Both the position numbers and the translations under genes were made by a program. From Candidatus Latescibacterota bacterium (lineage in GTDB: Bacteria; JAAXHH01), in NCBI GenBank assembly GCA_022823465.1, contig JAJEHX010000048.1:1-54416 (forward strand): a stretch of 54,416 bases of DNA. The letters run 5' to 3'. The notes under the pieces are model-generated. The model searched no databases. It was given only the letters and a program-made list of their open reading frames with translations, and had not been told where the DNA came from. Numbering within the stretch: the stretch's first letter is position 1; each line of letters starts with the position of its first letter. Below are positions 46,172 through 49,456 of this stretch, piece by piece.

Positions 46172-46347
46172 ATGCTCACCTCCTTAAGCAAATTACCGAC
46201 AAACCGAAAATAACCGGCAGCGCAAGTTCCATCAATGGATAGTGCGGGCCTGTACCTCTCTATCGTCTCGAGAGTGAGCTCATCACGCCGACTGTAAGGA
46301 ATACAGGTCCTGCTTCCCATTCATGCGGATTCCGGTCTGCTTCCAGT

Positions 46348-46410
46348 GTGTTCCACCGGGCCACATGGTGTTCCCACCGGGGGCACATGGTGTTCCCACC
46401 GGGCCACATG
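46348..46410. repeat. three tandem ~21-bp copies
   Basis: GTGTTCCACCGGGCCACATG (46348, 20 bp) recurs at 46368 (22 bp) and 46390 (21 bp) with small indels. It lies between galM and the helicase gene. An open frame through it would add an unlikely Cys/His/Pro-rich N-terminus to the helicase. Confidence 0.8.
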
Positions 46411-46447
46411 GTTCAATAGATGTCCGCGCGTTCCGCACGGAAGAAAG

Positions 46448-49400
46448 ATGCCCCCAACGCACCCGCCATCGGCGGCCAGGGTCCAGTCAGCGAAACCAAC
46501 TCTTCCCGTTCGTCCGGCCCTGCTTACGGAAGGAGAACTTTCCTGGCGGGAACGCAAGGGCCGAGGACTCGCCGTTTTCGGATGTCCCGATACGTTTTCT
46601 CTGCCCGACATCGAGTCCAGGCCGGGCACTGTCGTTCTTGGCGACCCGCATGAAGGACAGGACATTCCGGGAGAGCCCGACCGCCTGGTGCTCAAGCTGT
46701 CGTCCCGGTACGCGCCCCACCTGAACAGCCTGGTGAACCTCATCGTGCTTCCGGCGTACAGGCGGTACATCCCCCTGTATCTGTATGCGTCCTGGGATCA
46801 ATGGGACCTGGAAACCGGCTCGGTCGAAATGCCTGCCAGGGACCGGATCGAGGAGGTGATGGTCCCTCTCCTGAAGGAGCAACTCGGGGCGCTTCTGGCG
46901 CACACCTGCGCATTGTTTCCTTCTCCTGACGCGCTGGCCTCTTCGCAGAAACCCTGGTTGACGCCCGTGGAAAGGGCGATGCACGAGGGACTCACCCAGG
47001 GTGGCCTATCGCACAGGCTTCATGCCCGTGTGGGACCGCGTTTCGTCGATGCACTCGTCGAGGACACCCATGGAAACGTAGTGGCCGTGGAGATCGACGG
47101 CAGGGAGTTTGTCCCCGAAGATCAGATCCGGAGGGACACGGCGCTTATCGAAGCGCATGACGTTCGGGACGTGGTCCGGTTCAGTGGGTGCGAGGTCGTG
47201 AACGATCTCGAAGCATGCGTTGAAAGGGTACGTTCGGCCCTGGCCGGCCGAGGACACGGTACCGAACGCCAGATGCCGGAACCGAATCCCGGCCTGGCCG
47301 AGGAACAGGCCAGGTGCCTTACGCCCCGCGCCGGCGTGGTGCTTACCCTCGCGCCCGCGGGCTCGGGAAAGACCCGGGTGCTGACGCGGCGTGTCGTGGA
47401 AGCCGTCCGCGGCGGCGTCGACCCCGGCCGGATCCTGTGCGTGGTCTTCAACAAGGCGGCGAGCGAGGTGATGTCCGAGCGCATACACGGGGACGCCGGG
47501 ATTCCTGACGTGCACATCCGTACGCTGCACAGCCTCGGGTACGAGATCTGCAGACAGGCGCCGGACAGTCCGTACGCGGGCCGCGAGGTCGTGACGGAAC
47601 AATCCCTGCCGGGTGGATTGACGGATCTGTACAGAAGGGCGCTAAAGAATGACTTCGAGCGGTATTTCCAGACTGTCCCCTATCCCTTTCCCGAACATCT
47701 CGTCGTTGCGTACGAGGAAGCGGTTTCCCGGTACCGGAGGACATTGATCCCCGTCGACGGCAACGGTACACGCGAGGCGTTCGAGGGCTACGACAGGGAC
47801 CAGGTCCGCAGGATCTATGTGGAAATGGAGCGCCGCATGTGCGAGAAGAACTTGATGACCTTCGACGAGCAATTGTTCCGCGCCGTGGAAGTCCTGCTCG
47901 CCAACCCCCGGGCGCGCTCCGTCTACCAGCACCGCTTTGACGCGGTCCTGGTGGACGAGGTCCAGGACCTCACTCCCGTCCAGTTCCTTATGCTCCGGCT
48001 GCTCTCCCTGCCGCTGAACAACCTGTTCGCCGTGGGCGATGACGACCAGATGATAAACACCTTCACCGGTGCGGACCCCGAGAACATCCGCTCGTTTCAG
48101 CGGTGGTATCCGGGCGCGGTGATCCGCACCCTGGGTGAGAACTACCGGTGCAGGCCGCAGATCGTAAAGCAGTCCGCCGGCGTCATTTCCAACAACGTGA
48201 ACCGTTTCGAAAAGCCGATCCGTCCCGTGCAGGTTCAGGCTGGTCCGGGCGGGGACGCCATCCGGATCAACAAATGCCCGTCGCTGGAAGCCGAAACGGA
48301 GGCCGTGGTGCGCACGATACGCCGGTGGAGAAAACTGGGGTATGCCTACGGGGACATGGCCGTGCTGGTCCGGGTGCAGTCCATCGCGGCGCCCCTGCAG
48401 TCCGCGCTCGGGGAGGCGGACCTGCCCTTCGACTCGATCGATGAAGGGGCGCTGTACCAGTCCCATGCCGGGCGGACCGTCGGCGCCTGGTTCGATGTCG
48501 TAGCCCATGGCGAACGGGCCGATCCCGTGTCGCATGCCATCAGCCTGTCCTTCCCGTCCAGGCGACTCTCCAATGAACAACTGCGTGAATCGGCCGCGCT
48601 CGGCCACCTTTTCTTCGAGCGTATGGAGGGTCTGCCGGGTGATGTGATCGCCAGAGTGGAGGCGTACCTAAGATGCATTGAGATTCTGCGTGGCGTCTAC
48701 CAGTCGCCGGAAGCCCTGCCTGTCGACTTTCTCGACGCGTTGCTGAAACACTCGGGCCTTGGCGCCTACTACCGGAGAAGGGACGAGACGAGCAGGCGGC
48801 GGATGGCCGCGTCGAATATGGAATCCATCGGCATGATCAGGCTGATGGCCGCCCGGTATCCTGCGACGGATTCATTCGTGGAGTCCTATCTCAAGTCCAT
48901 GGCTGCCGAAGCGGATGCCGAATCTGATGCCGACAGGGAAGATCTGGAAGGACACGTCCATCCCGGCGCGTCTCAGGCAGCGGCGCCTGGCGACGACAGG
49001 CGCGAAGGAGCGACTGCCGATGACGCCGCCCGTGAAGGAGCGGCCGGTGAGGAGATGCAACAGGAAGAAACGACAGGCGACGACAGGCGAAGTGCCGACC
49101 GGATCACCGTTACCACGATTCACCGAAGCAAGGGGGACGAATTCAAGGGGGTGATCCTGTTCCACGTGGTCGAGGATATCCTCCCCCATCGCCGCATGTC
49201 GGGCTCGGCCGAAGACATCGAAGAAGAGCGGCGCGTCTTTTACGTTGCCCTGACGCGGGCCGAAGAAAGGCTTTGCATAACGACGCAGCGCAAGCAAGCC
49301 TCCCGGTTCCTGGCCGAGATGAAGCCTTCGCGAGAAGGAAATGGACTGACGCGCATCCGTGACGGTCTAAAGCGCATCCGTGACAGGCTGACGCGCATCC

Positions 49401-49456
49401 GTGACATGCTGTCCGCGCGGTCCCTTGCAGATCGGTTCCGCCGTTTTCTACCTTGA
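46448..49456 (+). CDS. DUF559-type nuclease fused to UvrD/Rep SF1 helicase
   Basis: A protein of about 1002 residues. Residues about 168-270 form a DUF559/Vsr-like PD-(D/E)xK nuclease domain (TPVERAMHEGLTQGG; RFVDALVEDTHGN; AVEIDGREF; VRFSGCEVVNDLEACVE). A UvrD-type helicase follows: Walker A APAGSGKTRVL (about 301), VLVDEVQDLTPVQ (about 501), VGDDDQMINTFTGAD, TLGENYRC, TIHRSKGDEFKGVIL and VALTRAEERL (about 933). An N-terminal domain of unknown kind (about 20-160), an acidic insert (817-884) and a 7-residue triplicate near the C-terminus are added. Such fusions suggest DNA repair or anti-phage defence; no partner gene is adjacent. ATG 46448 is a provisional start. It converges, overlapping 9 bases, with the next gene. 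Confidence 0.83.
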   Translation: MPPTHPPSAARVQSAKPTLPVRPALLTEGELSWRERKGRGLAVFGCPDTFSLPDIESRPGTVVLGDPHEGQDIPGEPDRLVLKLSSRYAPHLNSLVNLIVLPAYRRYIPLYLYASWDQWDLETGSVEMPARDRIEEVMVPLLKEQLGALLAHTCALFPSPDALASSQKPWLTPVERAMHEGLTQGGLSHRLHARVGPRFVDALVEDTHGNVVAVEIDGREFVPEDQIRRDTALIEAHDVRDVVRFSGCEVVNDLEACVERVRSALAGRGHGTERQMPEPNPGLAEEQARCLTPRAGVVLTLAPAGSGKTRVLTRRVVEAVRGGVDPGRILCVVFNKAASEVMSERIHGDAGIPDVHIRTLHSLGYEICRQAPDSPYAGREVVTEQSLPGGLTDLYRRALKNDFERYFQTVPYPFPEHLVVAYEEAVSRYRRTLIPVDGNGTREAFEGYDRDQVRRIYVEMERRMCEKNLMTFDEQLFRAVEVLLANPRARSVYQHRFDAVLVDEVQDLTPVQFLMLRLLSLPLNNLFAVGDDDQMINTFTGADPENIRSFQRWYPGAVIRTLGENYRCRPQIVKQSAGVISNNVNRFEKPIRPVQVQAGPGGDAIRINKCPSLEAETEAVVRTIRRWRKLGYAYGDMAVLVRVQSIAAPLQSALGEADLPFDSIDEGALYQSHAGRTVGAWFDVVAHGERADPVSHAISLSFPSRRLSNEQLRESAALGHLFFERMEGLPGDVIARVEAYLRCIEILRGVYQSPEALPVDFLDALLKHSGLGAYYRRRDETSRRRMAASNMESIGMIRLMAARYPATDSFVESYLKSMAAEADAESDADREDLEGHVHPGASQAAAPGDDRREGATADDAAREGAAGEEMQQEETTGDDRRSADRITVTTIHRSKGDEFKGVILFHVVEDILPHRRMSGSAEDIEEERRVFYVALTRAEERLCITTQRKQASRFLAEMKPSREGNGLTRIRDGLKRIRDRLTRIRDMLSARSLADRFRRFLP
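49343..49405. repeat. three 21-bp copies inside helicase C-terminus
   Basis: Units of 21 bp at 49343, 49364 and 49385 share GCGCATCCGTGAC. They encode GLTRIRD, GLKRIRD and RLTRIRD, an in-frame heptad repeat just before the end of the helicase. Confidence 0.8.

Follow-up and report, generated by a model that had tools for sequence, protein, structure and literature searches.

One gene in the window, the whole stretch of 54,416 nucleotides from a Latescibacterota bacterium that was analyzed, encodes a protein that joins a conserved N-terminal domain (NTD), a Vsr/DUF559-type nuclease, and a UvrD/PcrA-type SF1A helicase in one chain. Judging from domains recognized by sequence, we see about an even chance that this protein is a single-polypeptide, nuclease-coupled 3′–5′ DNA helicase with a predicted nick-and-unwind activity. 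Our confidence falls somewhat short of even for the wider proposal that it represents an undescribed family of one-protein nick-and-unwind enzymes, in which a UvrD motor and a nuclease of the Vsr-like kind, joined to a new α/β domain for substrate recognition, would form a self-contained short-patch excision machinery (or an immune nuclease in lineages where the gene is patchy).

The gene spans positions 46448..49456 of the forward strand, to which all window coordinates below refer. Its 1002-residue open reading frame is genuine, with members in 12 genomes of the genus and conserved synteny, and comprises three conserved blocks. The reading frame starts with an ATG codon just preceded by GGAAG; initiation from a GTG at 46346 would lengthen the protein by 34 residues, but in relatives the start lies near the ATG at 46448 instead. 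The upstream neighbor, an aldose 1-epimerase gene, is divergent, and the downstream neighbor, which encodes an alanine-racemase-like/D-serine-dehydratase-like protein, is convergent and overlaps the fusion gene by 9 bp. The fusion gene is monocistronic and stands alone among these metabolic genes, in keeping with its first-pass annotation as a stand-alone gene without an adjacent partner. The domain order given there (unknown domain, nuclease, SF1A helicase) likewise proved right. Searches around the gene turned up neither a promoter nor a terminator nor an RNA family. Immediately upstream of the start codon (46348–46412) lie 3.1 copies of a 22-bp tandem repeat (GTGTTCCCACCGGGCCACATG), most of which is missing in the close relative at locus L009.

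The helicase motor (residues 284–958; 47297..49321) was delimited with Pfam and solved relatives, the best of which are PcrA and UvrD. In the window protein, the Pfam model UvrD-helicase scored 155.7 bits (cut-off 23) and UvrD_C scored 124.1 bits (cut-off 25.6), the two together covering residues 284–948. The Walker A motif, APAGSGKT (residues 302–309; 47351..47374), is invariant in a 16-sequence alignment, and the Walker B motif (motif II), VDEVQDL (residues 502–508; 47951..47971), is invariant in 13 sequences. The set of SF1A motifs is complete and kept across the family; motif III is unusual (GDDDQMINTFTGAD). Pairwise dN/dS in the helicase region is 0.05–0.26. The helicase portion of the full-length AlphaFold model is partly of low confidence. 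With both Pfam domains far above their cut-offs and the motifs invariant, the protein belongs to the UvrD/PcrA-type SF1A helicases, as had been claimed for it from the sequence. It is not an ortholog of either PcrA or UvrD, as the NCBIfam equivalog models gave 230 bits versus 911 for PcrA and 186.6 versus 1144 for UvrD. The best PADLOC matches to the motor were GajB-type DNA helicases; membership in Gabija (GajAB) was rejected because the GajB models match the motor only, the neighbors are metabolic, and a gajA-like ATPase is absent.

The nuclease (residues 170–268; 46955..47251) is of the PD-(D/E)XK class and was recognized by Pfam matches in homologs, Foldseek, alignment, and a profile search. 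E175 in the first nuclease helix (46970..46972), D201 (47048..47050), and E215 and D217 of an EID motif (E215-x-D217; 47090..47098) form the E...D...ExD pattern of Vsr-like enzymes and show no variation across 16 sequences with identities as low as ∼23%; D201 and E215-x-D217 are predicted to be catalytic. The window protein itself was below the Pfam cut-offs (MTES_1575 (PF18741), 22.4 versus 38.2; DUF559 (PF04480), 13.4 versus 20.6), and homologs of the same architecture passed: G012 with DUF559 (26.0), G342 with both DUF559 (45.3) and MTES_1575 (39.4), and G130 with both MTES_1575 (45.1) and DUF559 (40.9). AlphaFold modeled this segment with confidence (most blocks >70). The structure that Foldseek matched best to the model was 3r3p, the catalytic domain of the Vsr-like homing endonuclease I-Bth0305I (probability 1.00, E 1.4e-3), with NucS/EndoMS also among the matches. 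A family profile searched against the PDB retrieved the endonuclease-like protein 3hrl (E 3.8e-5). The DG motif reads DGREFV in the window protein, without the histidine seen in G342 and G130 (DGKDFH and DGREYH), and pairwise dN/dS of the nuclease is well below 1. Because homologs pass Pfam, the acidic residues are invariant, and the modeled fold is Vsr-like, we assign the domain, as first proposed, to the Vsr/DUF559 type at the family level, with DNA cleavage as its predicted activity.

The NTD (residues 24–165; 46517..46942) is α/β by prediction and is conserved as far as G342 and G130, with G40, F44, L82, V100, P102, A103, L141, E144, and Q145 invariant. Its pairwise dN/dS of 0.16–0.38 indicates purifying selection. 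Searches of Pfam, PADLOC, and, by profile, PDB sequences returned no credible match. AlphaFold built an α/β unit (block pLDDT mostly 64–88) from 16 sequences that included divergent ones; the model made from 13 close sequences was poor. Foldseek lists for the model containing the NTD were filled by helicase and nuclease matches. Because the fold is without an assignment, the claim of a new N-terminal domain (residues 1–160) stands as a conserved domain unmatched in these libraries, and "new" means unmatched rather than proven to be a new fold. Such a domain may reveal a new way to choose DNA substrates.

Two further elements, included in the order listed in the first-pass annotation, are present in the protein and do not behave as domains. 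Both the acidic insert (residues 820–882; 48905..49093) and the C-terminal "heptad triplicate," which is encoded by 3.1 copies of a 21-bp tandem repeat (49346..49411), differ in both length and sequence from one close relative to the next, and pairwise dN/dS of the insert and tail is mostly 0.4–1.8, compared with 0.05–0.26 in the helicase. We therefore rejected them as functional domains: they are length-variable and weakly constrained, and the heptads are a DNA minisatellite. A second repeat, which encodes (PHDGD)n, has expanded as 15-bp arrays inside the nuclease hairpin, between the strands that carry the catalytic D201 and E215, in seven relatives (L014:6626-6741, L039:8823-8929, and L015:6607-6670; also L012, L013, L037, and L038). 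These arrays differ in length, are confined to one clade of the genus, and are absent from the window copy. The heptad and (PHDGD)n repeats look like lineage-specific minisatellites.

Each of the 12 genus members has the fusion gene, and all 11 genus contigs that were compared carry it at the same metabolic locus, between the aldose epimerase gene upstream and the racemase-like gene downstream. Across these contigs, it evolves faster than the neighboring genes. One of two other genera of the family also has it (G012), at a different locus beside dapH- and larA-like genes; three further genomes of the phylum (G013, G014, and G015) are without it. Beyond the family, 386 genomes sampled across the domain and 347 from a single large phylum were searched; the NTD–nuclease pair was found only in G342 and G130, and the first-look filter used on these samples may overlook some carriers. 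Its occurrence there is patchy (one of nine genomes in the phylum of G342 and one of three in the genus of G130). The G342 homolog is full length (1043 residues, with NTD, nuclease, and motor), and G130 has two near-identical copies at contig ends, each cut within the motor, with NTD and nuclease present. The architecture is thus common to three lineages at ∼27% identity, and the combination is rare, being confined to these three in the samples searched.

A small tree, which carried long-branch warnings, placed the G342 helicase with the family of the window protein and apart from PcrA and the helicases of phages and plasmids (100/99). The same architecture in two unrelated genomes, together with this grouping of the helicases, favors one fusion event behind all three lineages, as far as sequences tell. 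Among viral contigs, only relatives of the nuclease domain were found, and phage and plasmid collections gave helicase-only or nuclease-only matches, none covering 80% of the query. Five phage or plasmid helicases that were inspected begin at or near the motor. Among phage families, phrog_1967 matched the motor best, but the phage helicases inspected lack both the NTD and the nuclease. By sequence, all three blocks are co-inherited and under purifying selection. In G009, an in-frame TAG (L009:3178-3180) lies at the position of window residue K37 in a gene that is otherwise open; it is either a recent inactivation or an assembly error, and the other genus members are intact. Apart from its two fusion-gene copies, G130 contains many scattered frames of 64–87 residues (contigs C10, C44, C55, C117, C163, and C181; L084–L087, L089, and L090) that match only the last part of a DUF559-type domain.

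The genome that carries the window (G000) also encodes a PcrA-like helicase on contig C24, which scores 851 bits where the PcrA model requires 911, an AddA-like/AddB-like pair on contig C53, away from the fusion gene, two MutS-family genes, and three canonical Vsr-family genes on contigs C47, C49, and C22 (L143–L145). The three Vsr genes suggest either that very-short-patch repair is active or that several restriction-modification systems have left remnants. Because PcrA, AddAB-like, Vsr, and MutS genes are already present, the fusion protein would supplement the usual machinery and not substitute for it. Its vertical, syntenic inheritance favors resident genome maintenance in the genus, so that a role accessory to PcrA, AddAB, and MutS/Vsr is more likely there than island-type phage defense.

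Nucleases of the Vsr type nick one DNA strand, and motors of the UvrD type start from nicks or single-stranded stretches and unwind 3′–5′; in very-short-patch repair, the nick, the helicase, and Pol I are supplied by separate proteins. In the mechanism that we propose, the NTD would recognize or position the DNA substrate, the Vsr-like domain would nick one strand, and the UvrD motor would load on the nicked or single-stranded DNA and displace the cut strand, leaving a gap for resynthesis. One chain would then unite the nick-then-helicase step that very-short-patch repair divides among separate proteins. We favor this reading because that repair pathway follows the same order of nick and helicase and because a DUF559 protein (VsrA) was identified as the Vsr-like protein of Caulobacter (PMC12907096). 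The invariant helicase motifs and catalytic residues, the purifying selection on all three domains, the presence of the gene in 12 of 12 genus members at one metabolic locus, and the recurrence of the architecture in two unrelated genomes support it further. Against it stand the sub-threshold score of the window nuclease and its lack of a histidine after DG, the TAG in G009, the fast evolution of the gene relative to its neighbors, the patchiness of distant copies, and the Vsr, MutS, PcrA, and AddAB-like genes already in the genome.

A serious rival, although with clearly less than an even chance, is a single-protein anti-phage or anti-plasmid effector, in which the NTD or the motor would sense foreign or odd-structured DNA and the nuclease would cut while the helicase moves. 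Proteins with a known or proposed role in immunity include fusions of Vsr and helicase (ARMADA, PMC12458937; the giant MTES_1575 proteins, PMC3710099), and UvrD–Cas4 fusions are located in defense contexts (PMC5704561). The faster evolution of the gene relative to its neighbors and the patchiness of its distant homologs would also suit defense, and one of the two G130 copies lies ∼7–10 kb from a MutH-type nuclease/methylase pair, near AAA_15/TerB_N genes. However, in the genus the gene is fixed at a single locus, syntenic among metabolic genes, and under purifying selection, which leaves defense unsupported there; the contexts in G012 and G342 are not defense-like, and no PADLOC model is specific to the NTD–nuclease part. 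Neither a defense context nor a model match beyond the generic motor was found, with one G130 copy as a possible exception. Of the suggested single-protein DNA-processing or defense enzyme, the second half is thus unsupported in the genus and stays a possibility for the distant, patchy homologs. A survey of homologs for defense-island context, which the first-pass annotation had proposed, turned up the metabolic locus in all 11 genus contigs compared. Fixation as a housekeeping gene in all relatives, which it had named as speaking against its reading, was found by half: the gene is fixed in the genus and missing in G013, G014, and G015.

We consider it improbable that the protein processes double-strand breaks by resection, as Dna2/Bad or AddAB do, with the helicase acting on DNA ends and the nuclease trimming a strand. 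An N-terminal nuclease followed by an SF1 helicase is indeed the arrangement of Dna2 and bacterial Bad (PMC7430649), and the GajB-type matches of the motor are compatible with it, but the nuclease is Vsr-type and not RecB-type, the four-cysteine iron-sulfur pattern is absent (only C257 is invariant), the motor is SF1A and not SF1B, and an AddAB-like pair is already in the genome. Hardly credible is a decaying gene, a helicase with an inactive nuclease kept by chance in the genus, as might be read from the TAG in G009, the minisatellites expanding in linkers and nuclease hairpin, and the sub-threshold nuclease score, because the same architecture recurs in three lineages at ∼27% identity and because the invariant catalytic residues and the low dN/dS of all three domains (well below 1) have already largely refuted it.

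The fusion is of interest because nicking of the Vsr type and unwinding of the UvrD type are normally divided between separate proteins; their natural union predicts sequential action on one substrate and offers a single protein for testing nick-coupled unwinding. It is also a further case in which a Vsr-like nuclease is paired with a helicase, as recurs in both repair and immunity. Several other genes with related domains were noted. L069:8329-12522 (−) encodes 1397 residues in which a protein kinase is joined to an SF1 AAA_11/AAA_12 helicase, with an MTES_1575-like (Vsr) nuclease at the C terminus. In L071:7882-12336 (+), a frame of 1485 residues, two DUF559 stretches and a match to intein splicing accompany an N6/N4 DNA methylase. 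On Acinetobacter plasmids, L107:1768-6498 (+) is a 4.7-kb AAA-domain gene that immediately follows the brxL gene in a BREX system, and its terminal region resembles the nuclease of the window protein.

Compared with known systems, the protein shares a complete core with the UvrD/PcrA/Rep SF1A helicases, whereas its extra 280-residue N-terminal half and scores far below the equivalog cut-offs set it apart. It shares the nuclease fold and the E...D...ExD pattern with Vsr-like DUF559 proteins (Caulobacter VsrA, PMC12907096) and MTES_1575 nucleases; those relatives are mostly small single-domain proteins or lie C-terminally in giant SF1 helicases, whereas here the nuclease is N-terminal to UvrD. 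AddAB/RecBCD also combine an SF1A motor with a PD-(D/E)XK nuclease, but theirs is C-terminal and RecB-type and acts with partner subunits, neither of which applies here; with an N-terminal, Vsr-type nuclease, metabolic neighbors, and the AddAB-like pair elsewhere in the genome, membership in AddAB/RecBCD (RecB included) was rejected. The contrast with AddAB/RecBCD that had been drawn from the sequence is therefore correct and too narrow, since Dna2/Bad share the order of nuclease and helicase in one chain (PMC7430649) and PADLOC lists a NERD+UvrD protein. Dna2/Bad pair a RecB-family Fe-S nuclease with an SF1B motor, unlike the Vsr-type nuclease and SF1A motor found here, and membership was rejected because the four conserved cysteines are lacking (only C257 is invariant) and the motor is SF1A. 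The PADLOC protein (C3a187) resembles ours in joining a nuclease-type domain to UvrD, but that domain is NERD, not Vsr. UvrD–Cas4 likewise joins a UvrD-type motor to a PD-(D/E)XK nuclease, which is Cas4/RecB-like (pfam12705) and not Vsr-like, and the available part of that source reports no NTD of this kind (PMC5704561). ARMADA combines Vsr with a helicase, but the helicase is an SF2 YprA protein and the nuclease is C-terminal (PMC12458937). In the literature and libraries searched, the NTD–DUF559–UvrD combination is undescribed, and no paper with both DUF559 and UvrD was found. An N-terminal nuclease before an SF1 motor (Dna2/Bad) and fusions of Vsr with helicases (ARMADA and MTES_1575) are already known; what is new, in the sources searched, is the combination of NTD, DUF559, and UvrD in one protein.
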